Source of the DNA: Sandaracinus amylolyticus
Lineage (GTDB): Bacteria; Myxococcota_A; Polyangia; Polyangiales; Sandaracinaceae
Direction: 5' to 3'
DNA: 64,000 nucleotides
Assembly (NCBI RefSeq): GCF_021631985.1
Contig: NZ_CP070225.1
Location: 7,378,001 to 7,442,000, forward strand
How positions within the stretch are numbered: position 1 is the stretch's first letter; each line of letters starts with the position of its first letter. Shown here in pieces: positions 26,782 through 41,173 of this stretch. The position numbers and the translations under genes were made by a program. A model generated the notes under the pieces. The model was not told where the DNA came from, ran no database searches, and worked only from the letters and a program-made list of their open reading frames with translations.

Positions 26782-26783
26782 GC

Positions 26784-27218
26784 TCAGCGCTCCCGGCGCG
26801 CCCGGCACTGCGCGAGCACGCACTCGCGCACCTCGATCGGCGTGTCGCCCTCGCGCGCGTAGAAGCCGAGGCGCACCAGCACGACCGGATCCTCGCCCTC
26901 GCCGCGATGCGAGACGATGTGATCCTCGACGCGCGTCGCCTGCGCGGAGTACCCGGGATCGTCGCACTCGGGGTGGGCGCTCGAGCTCGTGTCGACGTCG
27001 CCCTCGCAGCGCCAGTCGACGTAGTCGAACGCCTCGTCGAGCGTGCCGTCGGCGCGGCGCACGACGACGCGGCTCGACGACTCCATCGCGCTGCGGAACA
27101 TGCCGAGCGGGCTGATCGGGTACATCTCGCCGACGCCGTGGGCGACGAGCCAGTACCCGAAGACACACGCGGTGACGAGGTACGTCGCGGCCTTCGGGCT
27201 CGTCGGACCGGCGCTCAC
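26784..27218 (-). CDS. Small membrane-anchored protein paired with the HTTM-like gene
   Basis: 144 residues with one N-terminal hydrophobic segment (YLVTACVFGYWLVAHGVG, about 13-30) and a soluble remainder containing four cysteines, two close to the C-terminus (CVLAQC). The segment MYPISPLGMF after the helix is typical of the short partners of HTTM proteins. The GTG at 27218 has a TATCGT box seven bases upstream, overlapping the divergent gene's -10 box. Function unknown. Confidence 0.6.
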   Translation of the reverse strand: MSAGPTSPKAATYLVTACVFGYWLVAHGVGEMYPISPLGMFRSAMESSSRVVVRRADGTLDEAFDYVDWRCEGDVDTSSSAHPECDDPGYSAQATRVEDHIVSHRGEGEDPVVLVRLGFYAREGDTPIEVRECVLAQCRARRER

Positions 27219-27225
27219 GCGCGAG

Positions 27226-27235
27226 ACGATATCAT
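27226..27235. promoter_or_regulatory. Overlapping divergent -10 boxes
   Basis: ACGATATCAT contains TATCAT on the plus strand (27230-27235, nine bases before the ATG at 27245) and TATCGT on the minus strand (27231-27226, seven bases before the GTG at 27218). The boxes overlap at GATATC, so the two promoters should compete for polymerase. Confidence 0.4.
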
Positions 27236-27244
27236 CGCGAGCCG

Positions 27245-27850
27245 ATGCACGTAGAGAACGCGATGGGGGTGTGCCCGGTCCGCGAGGACACCGAGATGCT
27301 CGCGGCCGCGGCCGCCGAGGAGGCTCCGGGGCGCGCGCTCGATCTCGGCACCGGCACCGGCTACGTCGCGGTGTACCTCGCGCTCCGCGGGTTCGAGGTC
27401 GACGCGGTCGACGTGAGCCCGCGCGCGATCGCGGCGGCGCGCGCCAACGCCGAGCGCAACGGCGTCGCGGTGCGCTTGTCGTCGTCGAGCCTCTTCTCCG
27501 CGGCCACCGGCACCTACGACGTGATCGCGTCGAACCCGCCGCAGCGCGAGCGCGAGACCGAGCTCTCGCGCCTCGTCACGAGCACGCTCCTCCGCAGCCT
27601 CACGATCTCGACCTTCCTGATGCGCACCTTGAGCCCGCTGCTCGAGCCACGCCGGCTCGGATTCCTGGAGCAGATCGCGTCGGGCGCGCTCGATCGCCTG
27701 CGCCCCGGCGGGCGCATCCTGCTCGTGATCAGCCCCACCGAGACCGCGCACCTGCTGGCGTCGCTGCCGCGCCTTCGGCTCCACGATCGCCGCCCGGTCC
27801 GCACGATCCCGGGCTTCGAAGTCGCGATCTTCACGCGCGCGTCCCAGTAG
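27245..27850 (+). CDS. Class I SAM-dependent methyltransferase, PrmC/HemK-like
   Basis: 201 residues. SAM-binding motif I is ALDLGTGTGYVAVYLA (about residues 30-45), the acidic residue after strand 2 is in VDAVDVS, and the catalytic-type motif is ASNPPQRE. NPPQ in place of NPPY departs from the glutamine/adenine N-methyltransferases. It is the first gene of a plus-strand group that continues with a B12-type radical SAM gene, so it may methylate an intermediate of that pathway. Starts nine bases after a TATCAT box with no ribosome site. Confidence 0.75.
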   Translation: MHVENAMGVCPVREDTEMLAAAAAEEAPGRALDLGTGTGYVAVYLALRGFEVDAVDVSPRAIAAARANAERNGVAVRLSSSSLFSAATGTYDVIASNPPQRERETELSRLVTSTLLRSLTISTFLMRTLSPLLEPRRLGFLEQIASGALDRLRPGGRILLVISPTETAHLLASLPRLRLHDRRPVRTIPGFEVAIFTRASQ

Positions 27851-27896
27851 TGCTCGCGTCCTGGAACGGGCAGAATGTGGGCTCGATCGAAGCCGC

Positions 27897-29318
27897 ATGC
27901 GCGCTCTCTTCCTCAACCCACCCGGCCCCGACGGAGTCCCCTACATCCGCGAAGGCCGCTGCGAGCAGAGGCTCTCGTCGTACGCGTACCGGATGCTGCC
28001 GATCAGCCTGCCCTCGACGGCGGGCGCGCTGCGCGAGCACGGGCACGTCGTGGAGATCCTCGACGCGTGCGGGCCGCGCGTGCCGGCGTCGTCGCTCGAG
28101 GGACGGGTGCGCGCGTTCCGGCCCGATCTCGTGGTCGTGAGCGTGTCGACGCCGACGTACTCCGCCGACCTCGAGACGATCGACGCGCTCGCGCGCTGGG
28201 TGCCGAAGGCGCACCTCACGGCGATCGGCGTGCACGTCACCGCGCTGCCCGACGAGGCGCTGCGCGCGTCGCGACTCTCGTCGGTGGTGCGCGGCGAGCC
28301 CGAGTGGACGGTGACGGAGCTCGCGGAGTGCCTCGCGCGGGGCGGCGATCCCTCCACCGTGATCGGCCTCTCGTTCCGGCGCGGCGACGAGATCGTGCAC
28401 AACGGCGATCGCCCGTTCGACGGCGATCTCGACGAGCTGCCCGAGCCGGCGCGCGATCTGCTGCCCGAGCAGGACTACTTCCTGCCCGTCTTCAACAAGC
28501 CGTACACGCTCGTGGTGCCGACGCGCGGCTGCCCGCACAAGTGCACGTACTGCACGGCGCCCTCGTACTACGGCAAGAAGCTGCGGCGCCGCGCGCCGAA
28601 GCGGGTCGTCGACGAGATGGAGGCGATCGTCCGCCGCGGCGTGGTGAAGGACATCACGATGTGGTCCGACACGTTCACGCTCGATCGCCGCTACGTGATC
28701 GAGGTGTGCGACGAGATCGTGCGGCGCCGGCTCGACGTGCACTGGATGTGCAACTCGCGCGCGGACTGCATGGACCCCGAGCTCGCGCGGATCATGCGGC
28801 GCGCGGGGTGCGTCGGGATCTCGTTCGGGCTCGAGTCGGGCGTGCAGGAGATCCTCGATCGCGCGAAGAAGGGCACGACCGTCGAGCAGGGGCGCGCCGC
28901 GGTGGAGGCCACGAAGAGCGCGGGGATCTCGACGCTCGGGCACTTCATCCTCGGCCTGCCCGGCGAGACCCGCGAGACGGTGCGGCGCACGGTCTCCTAC
29001 GCGATCGAGGTCGATCCCGACTGGGCGCAGTTCTACTGCGCGACCCCGCTGCCCGGGACCGCGCTGCGCGCCGAGGCGGAGCGCGAGGGCGCGCTGGTCG
29101 GCGGCGACTGGAGCGAGCTCGAGCTCCACCGGCCGAGCATGTCGACGAGCACGATGAGCGCGTCGGAGCTCGAGCGGCAGCGGCGCTGGGCCTACCTCGC
29201 GTTCTACGGGCGGCCGCGGGTGGCGCGACGGGTCCTCGGACGGATGGGCGTGCGCGACGTGCTGAAGCTCGGGCCGCAGGCGGCGAGCTTCGTGCGGTCG
29301 TGGGTGTGGGATGCGTGA
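27897..29318 (+). CDS. B12-binding radical SAM protein (BchE/HpnJ-like)
   Basis: 473 residues. N-terminal B12-binding-like Rossmann domain (about 1-155), then TRGCPHKCTYC (Cys212, 216, 219) and the long barrel seen in B12-dependent radical SAM enzymes; GLESGVQEILDRAKKG and FILGLPGETRE are class signatures. Such enzymes methylate unactivated carbons or rearrange rings. The C-terminal 60 residues are a helical segment rich in Arg. Its 3' end overlaps the following YdjC-type gene by eight bases, consistent with one operon making a lipid- or sugar-linked product. Confidence 0.85.
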   Translation: MRALFLNPPGPDGVPYIREGRCEQRLSSYAYRMLPISLPSTAGALREHGHVVEILDACGPRVPASSLEGRVRAFRPDLVVVSVSTPTYSADLETIDALARWVPKAHLTAIGVHVTALPDEALRASRLSSVVRGEPEWTVTELAECLARGGDPSTVIGLSFRRGDEIVHNGDRPFDGDLDELPEPARDLLPEQDYFLPVFNKPYTLVVPTRGCPHKCTYCTAPSYYGKKLRRRAPKRVVDEMEAIVRRGVVKDITMWSDTFTLDRRYVIEVCDEIVRRRLDVHWMCNSRADCMDPELARIMRRAGCVGISFGLESGVQEILDRAKKGTTVEQGRAAVEATKSAGISTLGHFILGLPGETRETVRRTVSYAIEVDPDWAQFYCATPLPGTALRAEAEREGALVGGDWSELELHRPSMSTSTMSASELERQRRWAYLAFYGRPRVARRVLGRMGVRDVLKLGPQAASFVRSWVWDA

Positions 29319-30144
29319 GCGCCGCCGGGTGATCGTGACCGCCGACGATCTCGGGCTCTGCGCGGCGTGGGACGGTGCGATCTTCGAGGCGCTCGAGCGC
29401 GGCGTGGTGACGAGCGTGTCGATCGTCACGACCGGCGCGACCTACGACGAGGCGCGCGCGAGGCTGCGGGCGCGCGGGGCCACCGACGTCGGGGTGCACC
29501 TCGATCTGATCGCGGGCAGGCCGCTCTCGCCGGCGAGCGAAGTGCCCTCGTTGCTCGGTGCCGGCGGCGCGTTCCCCGGGACGTGGCGCGCAGTGTTCAC
29601 GCGCGCGCTGGGCGGCGCGCTCTCGATCGACGAGGTCGAGCGCGAGTGGTCGCGACAGATCGAGCGCGCGATCGACGACGGGCTCGCGCCGACGCACCTC
29701 GACGCGCACTTCCATCTGCACCTCCTGCCGCGCCTCTTCGAGGTCGTGATCACGCTCGCCCGTCGCTACGCGATCGGCGCGGTGCGCCTGCCCGACGAGC
29801 GTCCCTCGCTGCGCGCGCTGCGGGCCGCGCCGAAGGTCGCGGTGCTCGACGTCCTCGCGCGCCGAGCCCGGAGGCGCGCGACGCGCGACGTCGAGCTCGT
29901 GCCGGCGAGGGCGATCGCCGATGCCGGCCGGCTCGGCCTCGCGGAGTGGTCGCGGGTGCTCGACGCGCTGGGCCCCGGGCCGACCGAGGTGATCGTCCAC
30001 CCGGGCCAGTCGGCCCGAGAAGACACGGCGCTCCGGTCGCCGGCGCTGCGCGACGCGCTCGCGCGCCTCGAGCTCACGACGTTCGGCGCGCTGCGCACCG
30101 GCGATCGAGCGCAGCGCGCGAGGCTCGAGGCGGCCCGCGCATGA
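29311..30144 (+). CDS. YdjC/ChbG-HpnK family carbohydrate deacetylase
   Basis: 277 residues. Metal-site motifs of the family are visible: VTADDLG at the N-terminus (Asp pair), VHLDL near residue 65 and DAHFHLHL near residue 131. The family removes acetyl groups from N-acetylated sugars; HpnK acts in hopanoid side-chain processing beside a B12 radical SAM enzyme. The ATG overlaps the radical SAM stop by eight bases and its own stop overlaps the GT2 start (ATGA), so the three genes are coupled. Confidence 0.85.
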   Translation: MRERRRVIVTADDLGLCAAWDGAIFEALERGVVTSVSIVTTGATYDEARARLRARGATDVGVHLDLIAGRPLSPASEVPSLLGAGGAFPGTWRAVFTRALGGALSIDEVEREWSRQIERAIDDGLAPTHLDAHFHLHLLPRLFEVVITLARRYAIGAVRLPDERPSLRALRAAPKVAVLDVLARRARRRATRDVELVPARAIADAGRLGLAEWSRVLDALGPGPTEVIVHPGQSAREDTALRSPALRDALARLELTTFGALRTGDRAQRARLEAARA

Positions 30145-30905
30145 GCGCCCGGCCGCGGGTGCTGGTCGTCGTCCCGGCGCACGACGAAGAGGCGGCGCTC
30201 CCCGGCGTCCTGCGCGAGCTCCGCGCCGTCGCGGCGGCGCCGTGCGACGAGTGGTGCGAGCTCGACGTCGTGGTGATCGACGACGGATCGACCGACGGCT
30301 CGGCGCGCGTCGCCGAGGCCCACGGCACGCACGTGATCCGACACCCGGTCAACCGGGGCTACGGCGCTGCGCTCTCGTCGGGCTATCGCCACGCGCTCGA
30401 GCGCGGGCACGATCTCGTCATCACGCTGGACGGCGACGGACAGCACGACGCGTCGCAGATCGTCTCGCTGCTCCGCGCCGCGCGCGGCGCCGACTTCGTC
30501 GTCGGCTCGCGCATGCTGCGGCCCGGAAGCGCGCCGCTCTCGATCCCGCGGCGGGTCGGGATCCACCTCTTCGCCGCGCTCGGCCGCGCGATCAGCGAGC
30601 TGCCGATCACCGATCCGACCAGCGGCTTCACCGCGGTGCGCCGCCGCGCGCTGCCCTTCCTCATCGAGCACACGCCGCGCGACTTCCCCGATCTGAACGT
30701 GCTGATCGCGCTCGAGCGCGCGAGCTTCGTGGTGTGCGAGGTGCCGGTCACGATGCGCCCGCGCCGCAGCGGCCGCTCGATGAACCACGGGCTCGCCCCC
30801 TTCTTCTACGTCGCGCGGATGCTCTGGTACGTGTACCGCGAGCGCCGCACGGCGCGCGCCGCCGTCGTCGTCGAGGGCGAGGCCGAGCGCGCTCAGGCGA
30901 AGTAG
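30141..30905 (+). CDS. GT2-family glycosyltransferase (dolichol-phosphate mannosyltransferase-like)
   Basis: 254 residues. GT-A motifs: VVVPAHDEE at the N-terminus, VVIDDGSTDGS, and ITLDGDGQHD as the metal-binding DxD-type site. No C-terminal membrane segment is evident apart from a hydrophobic patch (FFYVARMLWYVY), so it is likely peripheral at the inner membrane, moving sugar from a nucleotide donor to a polyprenyl phosphate or product. The order B12 radical SAM, YdjC deacetylase, GT2 suggests a glycolipid-type modification. It overlaps the convergent oxygenase gene by 13 bases. Confidence 0.85.
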   Translation: MSARPRVLVVVPAHDEEAALPGVLRELRAVAAAPCDEWCELDVVVIDDGSTDGSARVAEAHGTHVIRHPVNRGYGAALSSGYRHALERGHDLVITLDGDGQHDASQIVSLLRAARGADFVVGSRMLRPGSAPLSIPRRVGIHLFAALGRAISELPITDPTSGFTAVRRRALPFLIEHTPRDFPDLNVLIALERASFVVCEVPVTMRPRRSGRSMNHGLAPFFYVARMLWYVYRERRTARAAVVVEGEAERAQAK

Positions 30906-32200
30906 AGGACGGTGTCGCCGGGTCGGTCGAACATCAGGAACCCGCCCATCGTCCAGCGCGTGCGCGGGCCACGCACCCAGTCGACGCGGTGGAGGTAGCG
31001 GCCGCCGTCGAAGATGAGCACGTCGCCCGCGCCGGGCCGCACCTCTTGCCACTGCGACTCGTGGAGGATCGCGCCGACGTTCGAGCGCTCGTCGGACAGG
31101 ATGTGCTCGGAGCCGACGTTCGCCCACTTGAGCGAGTAGATGATCAGCCCGCCGCCCGCCTCGGGCTCCTGCAGCGTGAGGAAGAAGCTCAGCTGGTCGT
31201 GGTCGTCGACGAACGAGTTGAGGTGCCGGTACGAAGGGCGCCGGTACATCTCGTTACCGCAGTGCGGCGCGAGCTGCCCGCCCGGCGGGAGGATCCGGAT
31301 CGTCGCGGGCGTGTAGGGACGCCCGTCGCCGTAGTGCGCGAGCTGCACGCGCCGCCCGCCCGACATCGAGCGGAAGAGCGTCTCCACCCGCTGCTCGAAG
31401 GGCGCCATGCCCTCGAACACCGGGAGCGTCTCCTCGCGGAAGCGCGTCGCCGCGTCGAGGTACTCGGTGAGCTCGGGATCGCCGCCCTCGAGGCAGAGCC
31501 CGAGGAAGTACGAGCGCTGGTTCGCCGGCAGGTGCATCAGCGGGAAGCGCTCCTGGCTTCGCTCGAGGCGGCCCACGACGCGCGCCATCTCTTCCTTCGA
31601 GTACACGCCGCGGATCACGAGCCCGCCGCGCTTGCCCGCGTAGATCTCGCGCAGCGCGTCGGGATAGCGGTGGAGGTCCGCGACGTCGATGAAGTCGAAG
31701 GGGATCACCGGACGATCGGGCGGCGCCTGCTTCGCGGGATCGAGCGGCGGCGCCTCGTGCACGACGACGTAGGGCTGGGACGAGGTGAAGGCCTCGCTCG
31801 GAGCGGGCTCGGGCGCGGATCGGGGCGCTCCGTCGAGGAGCGTGGCGAGCGCGGCGCCGTCGTCGTGGTGCTTGAGCCACGCGACGAGCCGATCGAGCAG
31901 CGCGACGACGCCGCGGCCGAGCGCGGGGTCGACCGGGTCGTGGGCGAGATCGATCTCGCCGACCCGCTTGAAGCGCGGCGCCTCTCCCGCACGCCAGAGG
32001 CGCACACCGACGCTCGTCGATTCGTGCACGAACGTGGCGAGGACCTGCGGCCCGCCGACGACGCGATCGTGCGAGAGCTCCGCCGCGCGGAACGTGAAGC
32101 CGACGACCTCGCGCCCCGCGTTCAGCCCCCACCGCGAGAAGAGCTCGCGGATCCGCTCGTTCGTGGGCGCGCCGACCTGCTGCTGTTCGCTCTGCACCAT
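30893..32200 (-). CDS. Fe(II)/2OG-type oxygenase with HxG metal motif and N-terminal accessory domain
   Basis: 435 residues. Residues about 45-120 carry the recurring accessory domain (VGVRLWRAGEAPRFKRVGEI). The rest is a cupin-like oxygenase related to the two at 35523 and 36369. The proximal metal motif is PHCGNE (His313, Gly315), so the usual acid of H-x-D/E is Gly; the distal His is in RYLHRVD (404) and the cosubstrate Arg in RTRWTMGGF (about 415). An HxG site is what non-haem iron halogenases show, but an H-x3-E site cannot be excluded. Last gene of a six-gene operon, 16 bases after the radical SAM gene. Confidence 0.7.
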   Translation of the reverse strand: MVQSEQQQVGAPTNERIRELFSRWGLNAGREVVGFTFRAAELSHDRVVGGPQVLATFVHESTSVGVRLWRAGEAPRFKRVGEIDLAHDPVDPALGRGVVALLDRLVAWLKHHDDGAALATLLDGAPRSAPEPAPSEAFTSSQPYVVVHEAPPLDPAKQAPPDRPVIPFDFIDVADLHRYPDALREIYAGKRGGLVIRGVYSKEEMARVVGRLERSQERFPLMHLPANQRSYFLGLCLEGGDPELTEYLDAATRFREETLPVFEGMAPFEQRVETLFRSMSGGRRVQLAHYGDGRPYTPATIRILPPGGQLAPHCGNEMYRRPSYRHLNSFVDDHDQLSFFLTLQEPEAGGGLIIYSLKWANVGSEHILSDERSNVGAILHESQWQEVRPGAGDVLIFDGGRYLHRVDWVRGPRTRWTMGGFLMFDRPGDTVLYFA

Positions 32201-32216
32201 GTTCTCCCGATCCCGT

Positions 32217-33569
32217 TCAGATCACGTCCGGCCGCTCGTTGCGCTTGCGAGCGAGCTGCACGAGGCCCTTGCGGCCGTCGAGCGAGAGCGAGCCGTCGTC
32301 GTGCGCGGCGATGCGCTCGCACGCGGCGCGCAGGAGGCGCTCCATCGCGCCGCGCTCGTAAGTCCCGCTGAGCTGCGTGTAGAAGACGTTGAAGGTCCTG
32401 GTGCGCGCGAGCGCAGGAGCGGCCTCGTCGCGCGCCGCGAGCACGAGCTCCACCGTCGCGCCTCCGCCCGCGAGCGCGAGCGTGTAGCGCGCCTGGTTGC
32501 GGTTGAGCTGCACGCGCTCGACGCGGCCCAGCGCCTCGGGCAGCCCGCGGAGGAGCGCCTCCCACGCCGGATGCCCCGAGGGCCCGCGCGGCTCGCCGGG
32601 CGGCGCATCGGGACGGGCGTCGATCGCGCGGGCGCGCGGCGACCACGGGCGCGAGCGGGGCGCGGGCGCGAGCGTGTCCTCCTCCCAGCCGTGCTTGCGC
32701 ACGTAGTCGTGTGCGAGGCCGAGGCACTCCTCGGAGTGCTCGCAGAGCGCCTCGTAGAGGCACGCGAAGCGCGGGAACTCGTTCCAGAAGCTCTCGACGA
32801 TGATCGTGTCGGGCTGCGAGTTGTCGAGCGTGTCGCCGTGCGCGCCGAGCAGGCAGCGCGGCACGTACTTGGTCACCGCGCGGATCCCCGACGCGGCGCA
32901 ACGATCGAGCGCGGCGCGGAGCTGGGGCATGAGCTCGCCGAGCGGCGCGATGAGGCCGCGCTCGTCGGCGTGATCCTCCATCGGCAGGTAGTTCCAGAGC
33001 TCCATCTCCGACACGCCGTGGGCCCGCGCGAGGTCGACGATCCCGACCAGCGCGCCCGCGTTGGCGCGGTGCAGCACGGTGTTGGTGATCCGACGGACCG
33101 GGTGCGTGGCGAGGTTCGCGAGGCCGGCGATCACCTCGTCGAAGCTCCCGCGCCGCTGCGAGATCGCGTCCTGGAGCGCCGCGGTGTCGCCGTGCAGCGA
33201 GACGAAGAACTCGTCGATCCCCGCGTCCACCAGCCTCGCGGTGAACCCGGGATCGGCGAGCTTCCGCCCGTTGGTCTGGAGGCGCACGTGCTCGAACGCG
33301 CCGGAGCGGCGCGCGACGTCGACGAACTCGAAGAGCGAGCGCTCGAGCGTGACCTCGCCGCCGGTGAAGACGACACGATCGTACTTGCGGCTCCGCAGGT
33401 TCTCGTCGGCGATCTTCGCGAAGCGCTCGAGCGGCACGCCGCGGTAGTGGTTCATGCCCTCCTGCACGATGCAGAAGGTGCACGCGCTGTTGCAGTGGAA
33501 GTCGACGGTGACCGCGAGATCGCGGAAGCGCGTGGGGTGCACCTGATCGCGCAGCGCGGCCGCCGTCAC
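32217..33569 (-). CDS. Radical SAM protein with C-terminal accessory domain
   Basis: 450 residues. CNSACTFC (Cys26, 30, 33) and FTGGEVTL mark the barrel. A Cys group near residues 270-292 (FACLYEALCEHSEECLG) could bind a further cluster. The C-terminal about 100 residues are a recurring accessory domain (RTRTFNVFYTQLSG). The GTG start lies inside the GTGA overlap with the preceding gene. It is the only radical SAM gene in this oxygenase-rich operon and probably shares its substrate with them. Confidence 0.8.
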   Translation of the reverse strand: MTAAALRDQVHPTRFRDLAVTVDFHCNSACTFCIVQEGMNHYRGVPLERFAKIADENLRSRKYDRVVFTGGEVTLERSLFEFVDVARRSGAFEHVRLQTNGRKLADPGFTARLVDAGIDEFFVSLHGDTAALQDAISQRRGSFDEVIAGLANLATHPVRRITNTVLHRANAGALVGIVDLARAHGVSEMELWNYLPMEDHADERGLIAPLGELMPQLRAALDRCAASGIRAVTKYVPRCLLGAHGDTLDNSQPDTIIVESFWNEFPRFACLYEALCEHSEECLGLAHDYVRKHGWEEDTLAPAPRSRPWSPRARAIDARPDAPPGEPRGPSGHPAWEALLRGLPEALGRVERVQLNRNQARYTLALAGGGATVELVLAARDEAAPALARTRTFNVFYTQLSGTYERGAMERLLRAACERIAAHDDGSLSLDGRKGLVQLARKRNERPDVI

Positions 33570-34432
33570 AGCGTCCCGTAGTAGCTCGACTTCGTCATCA
33601 CCAGCGAGCCGTCGGGGAGCATCGTGTAGTCGACGCCCACGTCGAAGCGCAGGTGATCGAGCTCGCCGCGGTGGCGCTCCACGAACTCCACGATCTCCGC
33701 AGGGTACTCCATCGCGCGCAGGAAGAAGAGGAGCTGTCCGACGTCGATCCCCGAGTAGTACACGGCGTCGGCGAAGCGCTTCTTCGCGACGCACACGCGG
33801 TTGCAGTCGACGAGCTCGGGCCAGAGCACGCGCGAGAGCGGCACGCGCGCGTGGTCGACGAGCACGCTCTGCCGGATCTCGTGGAGGACCTCGCGGATCT
33901 CGGTCTTCGGGTGGAGGAACCGATAGACGTTGTCGAGCTCGGCGCCCGCGGCGCTCAGCTTGTACGAGCGGCCGCCCTGCACCTCGTGATAGCGGAGATA
34001 GAGGTTGAGCACGTGGACCGTGCTGCCCTCGGCGCTCCGCGGGTGGAGGTCGAACGAGAACATGAAGTGCGGAGCGCTCGGGGGCGGGCGCAGGTCGAGC
34101 CGGATCCACGGCGCGATCGCGTCGGCGATCGCGGGGACGCGCGCGCGGGTGTCGGGCGCGAGCTGATCGTAGAAGTAGAGCTCCCACCACAGGCGCCCGT
34201 GCTGGTGCTTCACGCCGAACACGGTGGCGTCGCGCCCGGCGGTGCGCTGGATCGCGGCGAGCGCGGCGTCGAGCGAGGGCGGCGCGCCCGCGACGTCGAG
34301 GCTGTTGGCGAGGAGCGCCTCGCTGCGCAGCTTCCCGCGGGGATCGCGCAGCGGGTCGTAGGGCTGGAGGCAGTAGTCGAAGAAACGATCCTCGTCGGTG
34401 ATGCGCGGCAGCGCGCGCGCAGCGCGGCTCAC
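33566..34432 (-). CDS. Unknown protein, possible ABBA-type fold
   Basis: 288 residues, no recognised family. Beta-strand units (ATVFGVKHQHGRLWWELYFYD, FMFSFDLHPRS, and the segment after HEVQ ending SYKLSAAG) alternate with helices. The alternation and the aromatic/Lys-rich strands are similar in feel to ABBA-fold aromatic prenyltransferases and to the upstream 34429 gene; this is weak inference. The C-terminal segment (VDYTMLPDGSLVMTKSSYYG) is another strand hairpin. Both ends overlap neighbours by GTGA, so it is translated with them. Confidence 0.45.
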   Translation of the reverse strand: MSRAARALPRITDEDRFFDYCLQPYDPLRDPRGKLRSEALLANSLDVAGAPPSLDAALAAIQRTAGRDATVFGVKHQHGRLWWELYFYDQLAPDTRARVPAIADAIAPWIRLDLRPPPSAPHFMFSFDLHPRSAEGSTVHVLNLYLRYHEVQGGRSYKLSAAGAELDNVYRFLHPKTEIREVLHEIRQSVLVDHARVPLSRVLWPELVDCNRVCVAKKRFADAVYYSGIDVGQLLFFLRAMEYPAEIVEFVERHRGELDHLRFDVGVDYTMLPDGSLVMTKSSYYGTL

Positions 34433-35511
34433 GAGCGCGCTCCTTCGGATCGCACGCGCGTCCAGGGCGGCGGCGGGCTCTCGTCGACCTCGCGCGCGCC
34501 GTCGCGCTCGGCGGCCCGCAGGCGCTCGGTGAACCAGTCGACCAACGCGTCGAGCGCACGCGCCGCGGGCTCACCGCGGCGGACCCGCACCGAGACGGCG
34601 TGGCGCTCGGTCCGCCGGATCGCGCGCGCGGCGTGCTCGCTCGGCTCGACGTACACGCCGAGCTCGACGCCCTCGTAGCGGAAGACCGCCGCCGGCTCGA
34701 GGGCCTCGGGCGCGCGGCTGCTCCCGCGCGGCTTGCAGTAGAGCGTCCAGGATCCGTCGCTCAGCGAGACGCCCATCGAGCGCGGCGGCGCCGGGGCGAA
34801 CGGGAGGACCGACACGATCGCGCGCTCGTCGTAGCCCGGGAGCGCTCGCACGCAGCGCCAGGCGCCCGCCTGCGGCTCGCGCAGCGCGACGAAGAAGGCG
34901 CGCGCCCGCAGCGCGGCGCCGTCCAGGTCGAACGAGGCGACACCACCGGCGTCCGCACCCTCGCCGCGCGCCGCCGCGGCGAGCGCCGACGCGCGAGCGC
35001 CGAGCCCGCGCGCCAGCTCCAGCGCGTCCGCCGACTGCAGGTAGAGCTTCGTCTCGACGCCGCCGTCGGCGCGCGCGTTGAGGCCGATGACCGCGGCGGG
35101 CTCGTCGGGCGGCGCGCCGGGCGCGAGCGCGGCGGCGAGGCGCGCCCGCGCGTCGCCGGAGGCATCCGACGCGTTCACGTAGAGCTTGAGGCAGCGCTGG
35201 GGGCCGCCGCCGCGGAGGTCCCACCCGACGATCAGCGGCACGCGCTCGGCGCGCGCGAGCTCGAGCCAGCGGCTCGCGACCTCGGGCACGACCACCCCGA
35301 GCGCGCGCGCGATCGGCGCGAGGAGCGCGGGGTCGGCCTGCTCGATCATCATTCGGCCCGCGCGCAGCGCGCCACCGTCCTGGCAGCGCACCGAGGTCTC
35401 GTACGCCGACGCGTCGCGCACGTGCAGCGCGAGCGCCGCCGCGAGCCCGTCCTGCGCGCCCAGCTCCGCGGCGACGCGAACGGCGAGATCGGCGGCGGCG
35501 CTGCTCACCAC
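34429..35511 (-). CDS. Unknown protein with repeated KLY strands and C-terminal accessory domain
   Basis: About 360 residues, no recognised family. Two strand units end in Lys-Leu-Tyr (LIVGWDLRG then CLKLYVNASD; VIGLNARADG then ETKLYLQSAD) and a third reads GVSLSDGSWTLYCKPR. Repeated K-x-Y strands of this kind form the tyrosine shield of DMATS-type ABBA prenyltransferases, so a prenyl- or other group-transferase is a guess. The last about 75 residues are the recurring accessory domain (VELGVYVEPSE then RTERHAVSVRV). GTG start 11 bases after the oxygenase stop. Confidence 0.5.
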   Translation of the reverse strand: MVSSAAADLAVRVAAELGAQDGLAAALALHVRDASAYETSVRCQDGGALRAGRMMIEQADPALLAPIARALGVVVPEVASRWLELARAERVPLIVGWDLRGGGPQRCLKLYVNASDASGDARARLAAALAPGAPPDEPAAVIGLNARADGGVETKLYLQSADALELARGLGARASALAAAARGEGADAGGVASFDLDGAALRARAFFVALREPQAGAWRCVRALPGYDERAIVSVLPFAPAPPRSMGVSLSDGSWTLYCKPRGSSRAPEALEPAAVFRYEGVELGVYVEPSEHAARAIRRTERHAVSVRVRRGEPAARALDALVDWFTERLRAAERDGAREVDESPPPPWTRVRSEGARS

Positions 35512-35522
35512 GGCGCGGGCTC

Positions 35523-36362
35523 TCAGCTCCAGTAGAGAACGCGCGTGTGGTCGCGATCGAACGCGAAGAACCCGCCGAGGGTCCAGCGCGTCCCCGAGCG
35601 CACCTCGGAGACGAGGTGGTAGTAGCGACCGGCGTCGAACACGAGCATGTCGCCCACCCCGGGCCGCACCTCGACGCAGCCGCGGGCCGCGAGGATCGGA
35701 CGCGCCCGCTCGGGGCCGCCGAGCTCGTGCAGGATGCGATCGCCGCCGTCGGTGCAGTCGGTGCTGAACACCTCGAGCACGCCGCCCTCTTCGGGCAGCG
35801 CGACGGCCACGTAGAAGCTCATGATCGTCGCGACGTCGAGGCGCGGCAGGAGCTGCTTCATCGACGCGTAGCGGGTCGTGCCGTTCTCGTAGTGGAGCGG
35901 CAGCGAGTCGCCCTCGACCAGCACCCGGATCGACGCCGGGAGATAGCCGCGCCCCGCGTCGTCGCGCGCGACGTCGACCGGCAGCCCGCCGGCGATGCGG
36001 CCCATCACGTGCTCGATGCGCGCCTCGAGACCGCCCGCGGGCGCGAAGAGCTCGCGCGTCGAGTCGCGGAAGCGCTGCGCGCCGTCGAGGTAGTCGCGGA
36101 GGTCCTCGGAGGCCATCACGAGCGGGCTGCCGAAGAGACCGCCCTTGAACGTCGGCGCGACCGCGCGCGGCACGCCCTCGAGGCGCCCGACGTTCGCGAC
36201 GACCTCCGCCATGTGCGCGCTCGCGAACGCGCCGCGCACGACCACGCCCATGAGCCGGCGCCGGTAGATGTCGGCGATGAGATCGGGGTGGCGCTCGAGC
36301 TCGTCCACGTCGAGCGTCAGCACCTCGAGGGAATTCGCCGCCGCGTGATCGATCGCAGCCAT
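35523..36362 (-). CDS. Fe(II)/2OG-type oxygenase with HxE metal motif
   Basis: 279 residues. Related along its length to the 36369 and 30893 oxygenases (MGVVVRGAF near residue 38; RWTLGGFFAFDRD near the end). The metal motif is LHYENG: His157-x-Glu159, a complete H-x-E acid pair; distal His in RYYHLV (about 249). Unlike its two paralogues it keeps the carboxylate, so hydroxylation or desaturation is expected. It is separated from the upstream oxygenase by six bases. Substrate unknown, probably the same as for its operon partners. Confidence 0.75.
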   Translation of the reverse strand: MAAIDHAAANSLEVLTLDVDELERHPDLIADIYRRRLMGVVVRGAFASAHMAEVVANVGRLEGVPRAVAPTFKGGLFGSPLVMASEDLRDYLDGAQRFRDSTRELFAPAGGLEARIEHVMGRIAGGLPVDVARDDAGRGYLPASIRVLVEGDSLPLHYENGTTRYASMKQLLPRLDVATIMSFYVAVALPEEGGVLEVFSTDCTDGGDRILHELGGPERARPILAARGCVEVRPGVGDMLVFDAGRYYHLVSEVRSGTRWTLGGFFAFDRDHTRVLYWS

Positions 36363-36368
36363 GATCGC

Positions 36369-37205
36369 TCAGCTCCAGTAGTGCAGCGTGAGGCCGTCGC
36401 GCGAGGGCGCGACGAAGCCGCCCAGCGTCCAGCGTGCGCGCGGTCCGCGCACCTCGTCGACGCGGTGGTAGTGCCGGCCTTCCTCGAAGAGCGCGACGTC
36501 GCCCACCGCCGGCCGCAGCCGGAGCCGGCGCCGCGCGCCCAGCTCCTCGTGGGCGCGCTCGCGCCCGAGCCGGTGATCGAGCTCGGCGATCAGCGGGTCG
36601 CCGAAGCACACGTCGTACACGTCGAGCGCGCCGCCCTCCTCGGGCATCGCGAGCGGCACGAGCGTGCTGATCTCGCCCGCGGGGTCGATGACCTGCGTCA
36701 GGTGGCGCAGCGCCGGGAAGCGGTGCGTCTCGTTCCCGCAGTGCAGGTCGACGACGCCGCCGGGCTCGATGACGCGCACCGTGGCCGGCGCGTAGGCGCG
36801 GCCCTCGTGGCTCGGCGTGCTGACCGCGCGGCCGCCGCCGAGCGCGGTGAGGAGCTCGCGCAGGCGCGTCTCGTACGTCGGCTCCTCGCCGAACGCCGCC
36901 GCGAGCGCGCGGCCCATCGACGCCGCGGCGTCGAAGTACTCGTCGAGCGTCTCGCCCGCCATGCGCAGCACGCGGCCGTAGGTGCGGCCGCGGAAGGTGT
37001 GCGACTCGAACACCGGCGCCGAAGCGTCGCCCTGGAGCCGCGCGATCACCCGCGCGAGCTGCTCCCGCGGGAACACGTTGCGCACCAGCACGCCGAAGAT
37101 CTCGCGGCGCAGGATGCGATCGACGCAGTCGCCATGACGCTCGATCTCCGAGGCGTCGATCTCGAGCATGGTGAGCTCGGAGCCAGTGCTCGGGTCTGCC
37201 GTCAT
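36369..37205 (-). CDS. Fe(II)/2OG-type oxygenase with HxG metal motif, first gene of six-gene operon
   Basis: 278 residues. Paralogue of the 35523 oxygenase, but with LHCGNE (His155, Gly157, Glu159) at the metal site and the distal His in RHYHRVD (about 247), then RARWTLGGF for the cosubstrate. Gly in place of Asp/Glu leaves space for a halide, as in radical halogenases of the SyrB2/BesD type; that is an inference from the motif. Heads an operon of two oxygenases, two unknown proteins, a radical SAM enzyme and a third oxygenase, divergent from the metallo-beta-lactamase-fold gene. Confidence 0.75.
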   Translation of the reverse strand: MTADPSTGSELTMLEIDASEIERHGDCVDRILRREIFGVLVRNVFPREQLARVIARLQGDASAPVFESHTFRGRTYGRVLRMAGETLDEYFDAAASMGRALAAAFGEEPTYETRLRELLTALGGGRAVSTPSHEGRAYAPATVRVIEPGGVVDLHCGNETHRFPALRHLTQVIDPAGEISTLVPLAMPEEGGALDVYDVCFGDPLIAELDHRLGRERAHEELGARRRLRLRPAVGDVALFEEGRHYHRVDEVRGPRARWTLGGFVAPSRDGLTLHYWS

Positions 37206-37239
37206 ACGTCGCGTCGCAACGACCTCACGTCGGTGAGAG

Positions 37240-37245
37240 TACTAT
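37240..37245 (+). promoter_or_regulatory. TACTAT -10 box for the 37270 gene
   Basis: TACTAT lies 24 bases before the ATG, leaving room for a leader with an AGGGA ribosome site (around 37260). This contrasts with the leaderless-type starts elsewhere in the island. Confidence 0.35.
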
Positions 37246-37269
37246 GCTCCTCCCGCGCAGGGACCCGCG

Positions 37270-38694
37270 ATGTTCGAAGTCACGTTCCTCGGCCACCAGG
37301 GCTGGCAGTTCTCGACCGGCCGCACGAACGTGCTCCTCGATCCGCTGCTCTGCGATCGCTTCGGGCACGACCCGCGCGGCCACGCGTTCGACGTGTTCCC
37401 GCCGCGGCGCGTCGATCTCGCGGCGTGCCCGCCGATCGACGCGGTGCTGTTCAGCCACGAGCACGAGGACCACTTCCACGTTCCGTCGATCGAGCTGCTC
37501 GATCGACGGATCCCGATCTACCTGTCCGCGCGCTCGTCGTCGGCCGCGCCACGCCTGCTGCGCGAGCTCGGCTTCGAGGTGCGCTCGCTCGAGCCGGGCG
37601 AGCCCTTCGCGCTCGGCGACCTCGGCATCCTGCCGCTGCCGCAGGCGTCGCTCGGGGGGAGCCACCCCGGCGAGTGGGACTCGCTCGCGCTCGTCGTCGA
37701 GGATCGCGGAGGGCACGGCTCGTTCTTCACGACGGTCGATCACCGCCCGCAGCCCGCGACGTTCGAGCTGCTGCGGCGCCACGGCGTGCGGCCCGCGCTG
37801 ATCGCCTACGCCGACAACGAGTCCGACCACTCCGTGATGTTCCCGTGGGCCGCGCCGAGCGGCGACGGGACGGCGGCGCTGGCCGCGGAGCTGCGGGCAC
37901 TGCTCGAGCGCGTGGTCCCGCGCGACCTGCGGCCCGAGGCGCTCCTCCTCTGCGCGAACGGCCTCGCCCCGCGCGGCGAGCTCGCGTGGATGAACGAGTC
38001 GATCTTCCATCGCGATCCCCGAGCGGCGTGCGGGCAGCTCGGACCGCCCTTCGCGGCGCCGCTCCCCGGCGAGACGATCACGCTGAGCGGGCGGCGACGG
38101 AGCGACGCGCGACGCTCGCCGTGGATCGAGGCGCTGCCCGAGCGCGCGTGGCCGGCGCGCGGGAGCGGCGCGCGGCCGCACGCGCCCTTCGGCCCCGCCA
38201 CCGGCGTGGCGTGCCTCGACGACACGTCTCGCGGCGCGCTGGAGCGCGCGCTCGGCGAGCTCGCGCGGTTCCTCTACGCGTCGCCGCTCTTCTGCGAGCT
38301 CTACCTGCTCGACGCGACGGCGACCGGGGGGCGGCGGCCGACCTTCGCGCTCGAGCTGCTCGAGGAGGGCGGGAGCACCGTGTGGATCTGGGATCCCCCG
38401 GGCTGCCGCTTCGTGCGCGAAGCGCTCCCGAGCCCCGAGCGCTCGGTCGTCGCGGGGGCGCGCTGCTGGGCGAGCGATCTGCTCGCGGTGCTCGAGGTCG
38501 AGATGCCCGCGGCGTCGCTCACGATGGGCCGCCTCGCCGCGTGGAACGCCGCGCCCTCGGCGCTGCGCTTCGACCTCGCGAACGTGCTGCACGTCTACTG
38601 CCACCCGCTGCGCGCGCCCGATCGCTTCCTCGCGCTCTACCGGCAGCTCGTGCGCGGCGCCGCGCCGCAGGTCCGCGCCGCGGGTCAGGGCTGA
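37270..38694 (+). CDS. Metallo-beta-lactamase-fold protein with extra C-terminal domain
   Basis: 474 residues. The hydrolase fold is marked by SHEHEDHFH (His63, His65, Asp67, His68), preceded by FLGHQGW and followed by a TTVDHR segment. From about residue 320 a second, unrelated domain of strands and helices begins (FALELLEEGG, SLTMGRLAAW), which I do not recognise. It could hydrolyse an ester, thioester or phosphodiester. It stands alone between two divergent or convergent groups and overlaps the membrane-protein stop at its 3' end by ten bases. Confidence 0.7.
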   Translation: MFEVTFLGHQGWQFSTGRTNVLLDPLLCDRFGHDPRGHAFDVFPPRRVDLAACPPIDAVLFSHEHEDHFHVPSIELLDRRIPIYLSARSSSAAPRLLRELGFEVRSLEPGEPFALGDLGILPLPQASLGGSHPGEWDSLALVVEDRGGHGSFFTTVDHRPQPATFELLRRHGVRPALIAYADNESDHSVMFPWAAPSGDGTAALAAELRALLERVVPRDLRPEALLLCANGLAPRGELAWMNESIFHRDPRAACGQLGPPFAAPLPGETITLSGRRRSDARRSPWIEALPERAWPARGSGARPHAPFGPATGVACLDDTSRGALERALGELARFLYASPLFCELYLLDATATGGRRPTFALELLEEGGSTVWIWDPPGCRFVREALPSPERSVVAGARCWASDLLAVLEVEMPAASLTMGRLAAWNAAPSALRFDLANVLHVYCHPLRAPDRFLALYRQLVRGAAPQVRAAGQG

Positions 38695-40268
38695 TCGGAG
38701 GCGGGGAACGTGTAGACCCAGTGGCGGCCGACGCGCGTGCCGACCGCGCCCGCGGCCTCGAGGTGCTCGCGCCACTGGCGGGTGCGCGCGTCGTCGCGCA
38801 GCGCGTACGTCGCGTCGCGACGCGGCTCGTGCTCCTCGGGGTGGAAGAGCAGCCCGGCGTGCGCCACCGCGCCCATGAGCTGCTGGCGCTGCCCGTTGCG
38901 CGGGTCGAGATAGCGCTCGGTCTCCCACGCGATCGCGGCGTTCGCGAGCATGTACACCTCGTCGATCGGCACGTGCAGGTCGTAGCGGGCGATCGGCAGG
39001 TCGACGTAGAGCGGGCGCCCCGACTGGTAGAGGCCGCGGGCGCGCATCTCGGCGACGAGCTCGTGGTAGCCGAGGTGCTGCGTGCGCTCGCGGACCGTGT
39101 CGTCGGTGAGCTGCCACCCGAGCAGCGCGACGGAGGCGGAGCCGAGCAGCGCGAGCGCGAGCTCGCGCCGCCGGAGGAGCACGAGCACCACCGCGGCGAC
39201 CACGACCGCCGCCACCGCGGCGCCCGCCGGCAGGACCGAGGCGCAGAGCAGCGAGAGCACGCCCGCGGCGATCCACGGTGCGCGTCCGTCCGACGAGAGC
39301 GCGGCCGACGCGAGCACCGCGAGCACCGGGAGCGCGGCCACGTAGTAGCGGGGTGAGCTGTCGAACCCGAGCAGGTCCGCCACCTGGAGCGCGGTCATCA
39401 CGCCGTAGACCGCGACCACCGAGGCCAGCAGCGGGACGAGGCGGCGATCGCGAGCGCCGGCGGCGGCGAGCCCGAAGACCGCGAGCACCGGCGCGTTCGA
39501 GAGCAGGCCGTCGCGCAGGTTGTGGAGCGCCTCGAGCGGCGTCGGGGCGCGCCAGGTGCGGATCTCGGGCGGCAGCCCCGCGGGGTTGGGGAAGTCGTTG
39601 TAGAGCCAGAGCGCGTCGCGGTGGTAGAGCGCGCCGGCGAGGCCGTAGAGCGCGGGGACCGCGAGGATCGCCGCGAGGAAGCGCAGGTCGCGGCGCGCGT
39701 AGAGATCCCACGCGCCGAACACCAGCGTCAGGGCCGCGAGCTCGTTGCGCACGAAGAAGAGCATGCCGAGCACCACGGCGGCCGCGGTGCGCCGCTCGGA
39801 CGCGTAGAGATAGAGGAAGAGCGCCGCGAAGAACGCGCCGTCGGAGTTCGGGTAGCCGTTCGAGGCCGCGATCGTGAAGCTCAGGCTCCCGGCGAGCGCC
39901 CAGCCCGCGACGTTCGGCGAGGAGAAGCCGAGCCTCCGCGCCGCCTCGCTCACGAGGTACACGGCGAGCGCGCCGAGCGTCGCGTGCACCATCACGTACG
40001 CGCGCACGCCGAGCGCAGCGGGCAGGACGTAGAGGACCATCAGCGCCGGCTTCGACTTCTGGAAGAAGAAGAGCGCGAGCGGCGCGTGTTGACCGGCGCG
40101 GGCCGCGTCGAGGGTGAAGACCGCCTCGTCGTGCAGGTAGCGCTGGGTGAGCGCGAGCCACGCGACGAGCACGAAGTACGCGAGCGCGAACGCGCGCGAC
40201 GCCGCGGGGCTGCCGGCGAGCATGCGCACGACCGTCGCGAGGCGCGCCTCGATCACCCGCTCCGTCAC
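38685..40268 (-). CDS. Polytopic PMT/ArnT-like glycosyltransferase-type membrane protein
   Basis: 527 residues, about ten hydrophobic segments. Near the N-terminus LTQRYLHDEAVFTLDAARAG places acidic residues in the first periplasmic loop as in GT-C enzymes; NDFPNPAG and SSPRYYVAALP are also typical. The last about 120 residues are soluble. GT-C proteins move sugars from polyprenyl phosphate carriers to lipids or proteins outside the membrane. GTGA overlap with the upstream oxygenase gene. It pairs functionally with the GT2 enzymes that make the carriers. Confidence 0.65.
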   Translation of the reverse strand: MTERVIEARLATVVRMLAGSPAASRAFALAYFVLVAWLALTQRYLHDEAVFTLDAARAGQHAPLALFFFQKSKPALMVLYVLPAALGVRAYVMVHATLGALAVYLVSEAARRLGFSSPNVAGWALAGSLSFTIAASNGYPNSDGAFFAALFLYLYASERRTAAAVVLGMLFFVRNELAALTLVFGAWDLYARRDLRFLAAILAVPALYGLAGALYHRDALWLYNDFPNPAGLPPEIRTWRAPTPLEALHNLRDGLLSNAPVLAVFGLAAAGARDRRLVPLLASVVAVYGVMTALQVADLLGFDSSPRYYVAALPVLAVLASAALSSDGRAPWIAAGVLSLLCASVLPAGAAVAAVVVAAVVLVLLRRRELALALLGSASVALLGWQLTDDTVRERTQHLGYHELVAEMRARGLYQSGRPLYVDLPIARYDLHVPIDEVYMLANAAIAWETERYLDPRNGQRQQLMGAVAHAGLLFHPEEHEPRRDATYALRDDARTRQWREHLEAAGAVGTRVGRHWVYTFPASDQP

Positions 40269-41071
40269 ACGAAGAAGCTCAGCTCGCGGGTCGCGGGGTC
40301 GACGAGCGCGCAGGCGTGCACCTGCACGCGCCGGCGGCGCGACCCGTCCACCCGCGTGACCTCGTGGAAGCCGTGCGCGTCGAAGATCACCAGATCGCCG
40401 GGCGCCGGCTGGTGCTCGACGCGCTCGACGCCGCGGAGGCTCGCCGCCGCGGCCTCGGGGTCGCGCCAGGGCTGCTCGTTGCGCGCCACGTCGGTCGCGA
40501 AGCGGCGGTAGACGACGAAGTGCCCGCCGGAGTCGGGCCGCTGGAGATAGACGTTGTAGTTCAGCCGCCGCGGGAAGCGCGAGAGCGCGCTCGGGCGCTC
40601 GCGCTCGTACCAGTCCACGTGCGGCGGGCCGACGGCGCTGCGGATCGCCCAGACCGTGTCGGGGTTGTACGTGCGGTCCTCGCCCTCCGACGACGGGACC
40701 TCGCGGAAGCCGTGGGCGCGCCAGGCGTCGCGCATCTTCTCGAGCGGATCGTCGCCGCCCGCGAAGAGCGCCCGCACGCGCGGCGCGTCCGCGGCGGCGT
40801 GCGCGAAGTACGCGGCGGGATCGCTCGAGTCCACGAAGAGCTCGACCGGCTTCGCCAGCGCGTCGAAGCACATCGGCCCCATGCGCAGCTCGCGGTGCTC
40901 CGGCAGCTCCTCGATCGCGCGCGAGAACCGCGCGACGACCTCGTCGCACCAGGCCGGATCGAGAAAGCGCGGGACGTGCACGTACGGCACGCGGCGATCG
41001 ATCAACGCGTCGAGCGCTGCGGGGCCCAGGCGATCGACGACGAGAGGCTCCCACGGGCTTGCATCACTCAT
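40265..41071 (-). CDS. Fe(II)/2OG-type oxygenase with canonical HxD motif
   Basis: 268 residues, not closely related to the other three oxygenases. PHVDWY gives His151 and Asp153; the distal His is in FHEVTRVDG (236) followed by SRRRRVQVH for the cosubstrate Arg. All ligands are present, so hydroxylation activity is credible (PhyH- or prolyl-hydroxylase-like half). It precedes the GT-C-type membrane protein with a GTGA overlap, so its product may be glycosylated. A TTAGCAT-like box lies upstream. Confidence 0.75.
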   Translation of the reverse strand: MSDASPWEPLVVDRLGPAALDALIDRRVPYVHVPRFLDPAWCDEVVARFSRAIEELPEHRELRMGPMCFDALAKPVELFVDSSDPAAYFAHAAADAPRVRALFAGGDDPLEKMRDAWRAHGFREVPSSEGEDRTYNPDTVWAIRSAVGPPHVDWYERERPSALSRFPRRLNYNVYLQRPDSGGHFVVYRRFATDVARNEQPWRDPEAAAASLRGVERVEHQPAPGDLVIFDAHGFHEVTRVDGSRRRRVQVHACALVDPATRELSFFV

Positions 41072-41173
41072 CTCGACGGCGGGATGCTAACAGCGGGGCA
41101 CGACGCGAGTCTCCCCGGATCGTCCCCACTCTCGCGCTCGATTCGCGGCGCCGAGCATCGGCGGCGCACCTGC

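Follow-up and report, generated by a model that had tools for sequence, protein, structure and literature searches.

Predicted WelO5-family radical halogenases and an acid-liganded paralog in a putative operon with a radical SAM gene and two genes of predicted ABBA prenyltransferase fold in Sandaracinus amylolyticus

RESULTS

Gene content of the predicted operon. The stretch of Sandaracinus amylolyticus DNA that was analyzed (64,000 nucleotides, referred to as the window) contains a predicted six-gene operon with the order P3-P2-Y-X-rSAM-P1, which represents the span of the finding (Table 1). The intergenic gaps amount to 6 bp (P3-P2), -4 bp (Y-X and X-rSAM) and 16 bp (rSAM-P1), and a nearly identical gene order was found at a second locus (L034). 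The divergently oriented gene for a metallo-beta-lactamase-fold hydrolase is also located beside the halogenase genes of L034 (60% identity) and was not seen in the Minicystis rosea locus (L037), while the carbamoyltransferase, a probable tailoring enzyme, has a counterpart with 66% identity in the latter. A Pfam scan of 39 of the about 51 window proteins revealed no isonitrile synthase, NRPS or PKS families; therefore, the pathway looks unlike the hapalindole type. The window also encodes a fourth 2OG oxygenase, P4, which is more distant than P1 to P3 and displays an ordinary HxD site (HVDW).

Table 1. Coordinates of the genes, domains and motif codons discussed (window positions)
Feature	Position	Strand	Length	Basis
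P1, predicted WelO5-family radical halogenase with extra N-terminal domain	30893-32200	-	435 aa	PF22814, 236.7 bits
Gly codon of P1 iron motif HCGNE (H313, G315)	31256-31258	-		
P1 N-terminal domain	31811-32200	-	aa 1-130	profile-level homology to the C-terminal domain of radical SAM enzymes next to X
rSAM, radical SAM enzyme	32217-33569	-	450 aa	PF04055, E 1.9e-18
C-terminal domain of rSAM, same kind of domain as at the P1 N terminus	about 32274-32579	-		
X, predicted ABBA (aromatic/indole) prenyltransferase fold	33566-34432	-		AF2, VIA, Foldseek
Y, second predicted ABBA prenyltransferase fold (start codon uncertain)	34429-35511	-		AF2, VIA, Foldseek
P2, WelO5-family paralog with acid ligand, predicted hydroxylase	35523-36362	-	279 aa	PF22814, 184.1 bits
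Glu codon of P2 motif HYENG (H157, E159)	35886-35888	-		
P3, predicted WelO5-family radical halogenase, first gene of predicted operon	36369-37205	-	278 aa	PF22814, 201.0 bits
Gly codon of P3 iron motif HCGNE (H155, G157)	36735-36737	-		
Metallo-beta-lactamase-fold hydrolase	37270-38694	+		PF12706, E 3.8e-12
P4, distant 2OG oxygenase with HxD site	40265-41071	-		PF22814, 44.6 bits; alignment
Carbamoyltransferase, probable tailoring enzyme	41183-42865	+		PF16861, E 1.4e-54; PF02543, E 3.8e-22

P1 and P3 belong to the WelO5 family. The open reading frames and motif positions bore out the original prediction that two of three paralogous oxygenases (P1 and P3) read HCGNE where the third (P2) reads HYENG, i.e., H-x-E. 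Among the 20,321 amino acids of called window proteins, HCGNE was confined to P1 and P3, with 0.0006 occurrences expected from composition. P2 is about 38% identical to each of the two HxG proteins (38% to P1), and P3 shares 35% identity with P1. All three proteins scored above the bit-score cut-off of 27 for PF22814, the Pfam family of the WelO5 carrier-independent Fe/2OG halogenases. The strong PDB sequence matches of P1 (best, 5j4r; E 7.9e-49) and P3 (best, 8acv; E 8.8e-37) consisted only of WelO5 and near-identical chains titled "Oxidoreductase." The motif Gly of both proteins aligned with Gly166 of WelO5, while P2 (HxE) and P4 (HxD) lack a Gly at this place.

The Gly had originally been taken as the mark of radical halogenases of the SyrB2/BesD type. 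The assignment as radical halogenases gained support and could be sharpened to the WelO5 family; the narrower SyrB2/BesD type was not found. The Pfam scan yielded no PhyH match for P1 to P3 at E 0.1, and neither SyrB2 nor BesD chains were among their PDB sequence matches at E 1. WelO5 is the closest kin, rather than SyrB2 or BesD. In the carrier-dependent SyrB2, a small residue replaces the acid metal ligand. The same holds for Gly in the amino acid halogenase system of BesD (PMC13244439); P1 and P3 share this feature with both enzymes but belong to a different sequence family. The original prediction had further named an acid ligand at the metal position, for example the Glu at +4, as evidence that would speak against halogenation. 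The +4 Glu of P1 and P3 was ruled out as a hidden metal ligand, since the WelO5 motif itself (HVGND) has an Asp at +4, yet WelO5 binds chloride, as seen from its PDB entries with Cl (PMC8407142).

The second Fe-binding His, the 2OG-binding Arg and Ser189 are present in P1, P2 and P3 and hence do not discriminate between them (positions are quoted in WelO5 numbering; the index of the aligned chain is one higher). The Arg was invariant in two alignments. Ser189 is described as steering chlorination in WelO5 in QM/MM work (PMC13244439). P1 carries the pair Asp186-Gln187, whereas P3 and its L034 ortholog have Gly186-Glu187. Asp186 occurred in 10 of the 16 HxG rows, and Gln187 occurred in 14 of the 16, compared to 6 of the 27 other rows; the two HxG rows without Gln187 are P3 and its ortholog. 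This signature is a criterion derived from the present alignment, without published precedent as a test.

Conservation of the iron motifs. HCGNE was retained in the L034 orthologs of P1 (59% identity) and P3 (64% identity), and HYEN was likewise kept by relatives of P2 in L034 and in M. rosea. In a tree of 43 rows (near-identical rows and rows shorter than 180 aa were dropped, and the truncated L024 sequence, an HxD row, was excluded), P3 clustered with P2 and its HxE relatives (82/89, unstarred). Switches between HxG and HxD/E have taken place more than once within the PF22814 family. L090 duplicates L039, lying on the same contig, and the two were counted as one. Scanning genome contigs with a single peptide pattern returned 6 loci and does not constitute a census. 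No plasmid relatives of P3 were found by tblastn. In separate DNA-level searches, 40 of about 3,600 candidates were scored, so that an absent match there is little informative.

X and Y are predicted to adopt an ABBA prenyltransferase fold. AF2 models were obtained for X (mean pLDDT, 80.4; pTM, 0.83; 5 sequences) and Y (mean pLDDT, 81.0; pTM, 0.76; 3 sequences). Comparison with known structures gave a VIA Z score of 13.9 to FgaPT2 for X (best Foldseek match, EpzP; E 6.7e-5) and of 17.7 to 6zrz for Y, mostly over residues 1 to 268 (best Foldseek match, PatF; E 9.3e-8). The 50 VIA rows listed for each protein were all prenyltransferases of the ABBA kind, with 8 to 16% identity in the listed alignments. 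The X model is of moderate quality, with a Foldseek TM score to the query of 0.39 to 0.48 for the first ten matches. Y displays two KxY motifs, of which K109, Y111, K155 and Y157 were invariant in 10 rows. No Pfam family was assigned to X or Y at E 0.1, and hhalign detected no sequence kinship between the two. Because PDB profile searches gave weak, unrelated-looking matches, with no ABBA prenyltransferase among the best 60 of 108 matches for X or in the 1 match for Y, the fold assignment rests on the AF2 models. X and Y are thus predicted to be putative ABBA-fold prenyltransferases. They resemble the ABBA indole prenyltransferases (DMATS, CymD, AmbP1 and PatF) in predicted fold and, for Y, in the KxY motifs but differ in identity level, in lacking a known Pfam family and in the coupling of X to a radical SAM gene. 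Each of the 19 distinct loci with X that were read has a relative of the rSAM enzyme next to X. X was present in at least 32 of 377 Myxococcota genomes, which is a lower bound since at most 6 first-look candidates were scored per genome. Nine sampled genomes carry both X and a PF22814 gene, and in all nine the two lie about 5 kb apart or less (hypergeometric p 2.6e-5, with no account taken of relatedness). A search of the open-access literature, which gives a weak negative, found no report of a radical SAM/ABBA prenyltransferase gene pair.

The N-terminal domain of P1 resembles the tail of the radical SAM enzyme. P3 lacks an extra domain, whereas the N-terminal domain of P1 is akin to the radical SAM tail. 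In hhalign, it matched the radical SAM tails with a probability of 95.9 (E 5.5e-9). A first tail profile, which contained unrelated long tails, missed P1; the profile rebuilt from 29 tails matched P1 (1.1e-4), its L034 ortholog (4.8e-6) and the L005 protein (3.7e-13) and listed neither reversed decoys nor the HxG protein L079. Two other radical SAM proteins of the window (16199-17488, 5e-4; 13254-15041, 1.5e-3) were listed close to the value of P1; since these extra matches are themselves radical SAM proteins, the odds for a shared domain were kept. Conversely, when the N termini of three halogenases served as the profile, 17 of the 29 tails were listed at E 1, the best of them at 7.3e-12; the window's own rSAM tail was absent, and the tail of its L034 ortholog reached only 0.024. 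An iterated profile reached the window's own tail (1.9e-5), and a single-sequence search of 4 genomes yielded nothing besides P1. At the profile level, the P1 N-terminal domain is homologous to the tail of X-adjacent radical SAM enzymes.

DISCUSSION

We consider it most likely that P1 and P3 are radical halogenases and P2 is a hydroxylase of an uncharacterized and probably prenylating pathway. With a probability of roughly 0.64, P1 and P3 would be WelO5-family radical halogenases encoded in one predicted operon with X, Y, rSAM and the hydroxylating or desaturating P2. The Gly of P1 and P3 would leave vacant the coordination position occupied by Asp or Glu in hydroxylases, and, by analogy to the family, a halide would fill this site at the iron. 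Reaction with O2 and 2OG would then generate a halo-ferryl species that abstracts a hydrogen from an aliphatic carbon, followed by rebound of the halogen onto the substrate. P2, with Glu in place of the Gly, would carry out hydroxylation or desaturation. The two putative prenyltransferases and the radical SAM enzyme may act together with P1 to P3. Given the shared predicted operon, the product is likely an aromatic compound (or a peptide) that is halogenated, oxidized and prenylated, and neighbors such as the carbamoyltransferase may decorate it further.

P1 and P3 share with WelO5, AmbO5 and WelO5* the PF22814 family, the HxG at the same place, the +4 acid, Ser189, both Fe-binding His residues and the 2OG-binding Arg. 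They differ in being myxobacterial and far in sequence, in having two HxG copies accompanied by an HxE copy within a single predicted operon, and in the domain of P1 that is akin to the rSAM tail. AmbP1, an ABBA prenyltransferase according to PDB titles, and AmbO5 are part of one hapalindole/ambiguine pathway, which the predicted operon resembles in pairing an ABBA-type prenyltransferase with a WelO5-type halogenase. AmbO5 is described as a WelO5-type halogenase (PMC8407142).

HxG alone does not prove halogenation, because AspH hydroxylates with the same two-histidine HxG...H iron site (PMC10947486). Hence, P1 and/or P3 might be two-histidine hydroxylases or other nonhalogenating 2OG enzymes that, like AspH, hold water in the open site. 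The report that Gly substitution was insufficient for efficient halogenation in a BesD relative (PMC13244439) is in line with this reading, as are, for P3, the missing Gln187 and the grouping with HxE relatives. However, the closest solved relatives of P1 and P3 that carry HxG are the WelO5 halogenases, whereas neither protein had an AspH-family match at E 0.1 in the Pfam scan; we therefore regard nonhalogenating enzymes as unlikely, at odds of about one to four. The assignment as a halogenase is less certain for P3 than for P1, as P3 has Glu in place of Gln187. Two residues before Ser189, this Glu, conserved in the L034 ortholog, may face the active site and could serve as a third iron ligand, so that P3 would be an acid-liganded hydroxylase and only P1 would halogenate. 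Both P3 sequences have nevertheless kept the Gly, while the adjacent HxE paralog keeps its normal acid, and we judge such a role of the Glu to be improbable.

An even smaller chance is given to indiacen B, a prenylated indole bearing chlorine, as the product of the operon; P1 and P3 would then chlorinate its isoprene unit. That unit is chlorinated at a methylene group (PMC4660955), X and Y have the predicted prenyltransferase fold, and indiacens are reported from the type strain S. amylolyticus DSM 53668T and, as indiacens A and B, from S. defensii MSr10575 (PMC9306752). In the sister genome G177, apparently that of an indiacen producer, nothing matched PF22814 even with the cut-off relaxed to E 1, and G177 shares with the source genome a separate PF11991 (DMATS-like) gene (90% identity) near FAD-oxidase and P450 genes. 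Indiacen B was thus disfavored as the operon product.

Returning to P1 and P3 as WelO5-family halogenases, the locus could, more tentatively and with the odds against it, represent a new pathway type. The accessory domain fused to the WelO5-family halogenase would be of one kind with that of its radical SAM partner, letting both enzymes dock on one shared prenylated substrate that is carried and possibly peptidic. The HxG and HxE/HxD states would have interconverted several times, with P3/P2 as a tandem pair across one switch.

Enzymes of the kind predicted for P1 and P3, which put chlorine or bromine on an unreactive carbon, are rare, and the descriptions of WelO5-type halogenases consulted concerned only hapalindole-type cyanobacteria (PMC8407142). 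The two HxG enzymes and their HxE sister constitute natural sets for probing which features other than the Gly/acid swap turn such an enzyme into a halogenase. The locus also points to a radical SAM/ABBA-fold gene pair and to an uncharacterized, probably halogenated natural product in an apparently cultured strain.

Metal-ligand position of the WelO5-like proteins

The paralogous Fe/2-oxoglutarate (2OG) oxygenases P1, P3 and P2 matched Pfam family PF22814 ("Carrier-protein-independent halogenase WelO5") with 236.7, 201.0 and 184.1 bits (cut-off, 27 bits), and the distant 2OG oxygenase P4 matched it weakly (44.6 bits). A PDB sequence search with the three paralogues returned WelO5 and near-identical chains as the sole strong matches; some of the WelO5-like chains carry just the name "Oxidoreductase." The open reading frames and motifs agreed with the original prediction (HCGNE in P1 and P3, HYENG in P2). 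The proteins called in the window total 20,321 aa and contain HCGNE just twice, compared to 0.0006 occurrences expected. The three are not near-copies, identity to P1 being 38% for P2 and 35% for P3. The proposed replacement of the acid by glycine was borne out by alignment to WelO5: the Gly of both P1 and P3 falls on Gly166, the acid-ligand position, and the Glu of P2 aligns with the Asp of PDB chain 5iqu, the WelO5 G166D variant (PMC8407142). The Glu at +4 was ruled out as a hidden metal ligand because WelO5 itself reads HVGND, so that an acidic +4 residue is characteristic of the family. The HCGNE motif is real, conserved and within the correct family. P1 and P3 retain Ser189, the two iron-binding histidines and the 2OG arginine, but P2 does so equally, and these residues therefore do not discriminate the halogenase state.

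Predicted operon and putative prenyltransferases

The minus-strand genes are ordered P3-P2-Y-X-rSAM-P1 over 30893-37205, the span originally described, with gaps of 6 bp (P3-P2), -4 bp (Y-X and X-rSAM) and 16 bp (rSAM-P1); the start codon position of Y is uncertain. A MAG locus (L034) keeps the order P3-P2-Y-X-rSAM at identities of 58 to 73%, with P1 and the MBL gene immediately upstream. The Minicystis rosea locus (L037) has a HYEN-bearing P2 relative together with rSAM, X, Y and the carbamoyltransferase; P1, P3 and MBL were not found in the 20.8 kb read. Since these three are present in the window and L034 and missing from the stretch of L037 read, they look like one module gained or lost on a core bearing the HxE enzyme (two loci versus one). 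In both L034 and L037, relatives of the two membrane-like proteins adjoin the X-rSAM core. Four other myxococcotal loci (L085, L088, L089 and L091) each have two PF22814-type genes per X-rSAM locus, and in L089 an HxG and an HxE copy are adjacent and convergent.

Features of the window
Feature	Position (strand)	Basis
P1, Fe/2OG oxygenase	30893-32200 (-)	
rSAM, radical SAM enzyme	32217-33569 (-)	
X, predicted ABBA prenyltransferase fold	33566-34432 (-)	
Y, predicted ABBA prenyltransferase fold	34429-35511 (-)	
P2, Fe/2OG oxygenase	35523-36362 (-)	
P3, Fe/2OG oxygenase	36369-37205 (-)	
MBL, metallo-beta-lactamase-fold hydrolase	37270-38694 (+)	
P4, distant 2OG oxygenase	40265-41071 (-)	
Carbamoyltransferase	41183-42865 (+)	
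Two membrane-like proteins (judged by eye), no Pfam match	38685-40268; 42900-44486	
Radical SAM plus B12-binding domain, four proteins	27897; 45817; 47727; 49700	Pfam scan
Radical SAM protein, 1065 aa	17485-20682	Pfam scan
Single 601-aa chain containing two radical SAM stretches	23602-25407	

X and Y had no Pfam match at an E value of 0.1. Their AF2 models (mean pLDDT, 80.4 from 5 sequences and 81.0 from 3 sequences) match the ABBA prenyltransferase fold, a likeness that alone is no proof of activity: in the VIA comparison, X gave Z 13.9 (rmsd 3.9; 237 aligned) and Y gave Z 17.7 (rmsd 3.7; 260 aligned; residues 1-268), and the 50 rows listed for each were all ABBA prenyltransferases. The top Foldseek matches were likewise prenyltransferases, with modest TM-scores. 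Y retains two KxY motifs, which in such prenyltransferases hold prenyl diphosphate. X is present in at least 32 of 377 Myxococcota genomes and in 20 of 26 loci read (19 distinct, 21 X genes), and each of these 20 has a relative of the rSAM gene within 177 bp by match coordinates. X and PF22814 occur together in 9 of the 377 genomes, including that of the window, and lie about 5 kb or less apart in all nine; 2.0 genomes with both would be expected (p 2.6e-5, ignoring relatedness).

By profile comparison, the first 130 residues of P1 share homology with the domain that ends the radical SAM enzymes found next to X. A profile built from 29 of these C-terminal tails matched the L005 halogenase (3.7e-13), the L034 P1 orthologue (4.8e-6) and P1 (1.1e-4), with no reversed decoy among matches at E 10, and hhalign gave a probability of 95.9 (E 5.5e-9). 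However, the profile also matched two other radical SAM proteins of the window (5e-4 and 1.5e-3). The reverse profile matched 17 of the 29 tails, the window's own rSAM tail not among them, and single-sequence search did not detect the kinship. The WelO5-family proteins seen with the domain (P1, its orthologue and L005) are all HxG, and we infer a common docking or substrate-binding domain. Radical SAM domains were matched by 16 of 39 window proteins scanned, over 9236-62121, an unusual density.

Ligand state across PF22814

At an E value of 1e-10, PF22814 was found in 23 of 377 Myxococcota genomes and in 7 of 317 genomes of the class, a set that overlaps the former. After duplicates and short rows were dropped, 43 rows remained, and exclusion of one truncated row left 42 for the tree: 16 HxG, 14 HxD and 12 HxE (Gly, Asp or Glu at WelO5 position 166). 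The best tree required six changes for HxG, at least two of them forced by starred branches; the HxG rows formed a single group in 0 of 200 bootstrap trees, and a constraint uniting all HxG rows was weakly rejected (AU p 0.038; 0.027 without L028). P3 clusters with the HxE clade of P2 (support 82/89, branch not starred), and the placement of P1 and its orthologue among HxG rows is not resolved. The tree is unrooted and does not give the direction of the switch. Position 187 is Gln in 14 of 16 HxG rows compared to 6 of 27 HxD/HxE rows, an association confounded by the relatedness of the rows; the two exceptions, P3 and its orthologue, have Glu.

Comparison with a second Sandaracinus genome

The other Sandaracinus genome (G177) carries X, rSAM and Y relatives, and a PF22814 search at E 1 found no match there. 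Several stretches of window DNA are about 90% identical to G177, ending at about base 25,410; past this flank, the long matches in the 24,001-44,000 query were X-rSAM (69%) and Y (67%), which in G177 lie about 24 kb and 12 kb from the flank (40 of about 3,600 candidates scored in each comparison). Given the conserved flank followed by divergent X-rSAM and Y, the two genomes seem to have different versions of the cluster at one shared chromosomal site, and the predicted halogenases seem specific to the window genome's version. The divergent cluster seems to start near base 25,410, at a site common to G177. Elsewhere, the stretch at about 7880-8340, inside a protein whose Cys-rich motif reads NCGACGNAC, had many 67 to 76% DNA matches across G177.

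Sandarazols of Sandaracinus defensii MSr10575 are plasmid-encoded, and indiacens A and B are reported from this strain and from S. amylolyticus (PMC9306752). In the window genome (G000:C1:6159001-6179000) and in G177 (G177:C1:1502001-1522000), genes for a cytokinin-dehydrogenase-like FAD oxidase and a P450 lie close to a DMATS-like gene (PF11991), with about 90 to 97% identity between the two genomes. This common locus is a better indiacen candidate than the predicted halogenase operon.

Predicted activities

Glycine at the acid position is not sufficient for halogenation, because AspH has an HxG site and hydroxylates (PMC10947486) and Gly substitution by itself was insufficient in the BesD system (PMC13244439). 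Radical halogenation by P1 and P3 is the best reading of the sequences, with a probability of about 0.64 that both are halogenases. P1 is probably a halogenase and P3 fairly likely to be one; P2 is predicted with good confidence to be a hydroxylase or desaturase, and there is about an even chance that the substrate is a prenylated aromatic or peptide. The operon would place a known enzyme family within a pathway type for which no description was found in the open-access literature, and it offers natural sister sets of predicted halogenases and hydroxylases.
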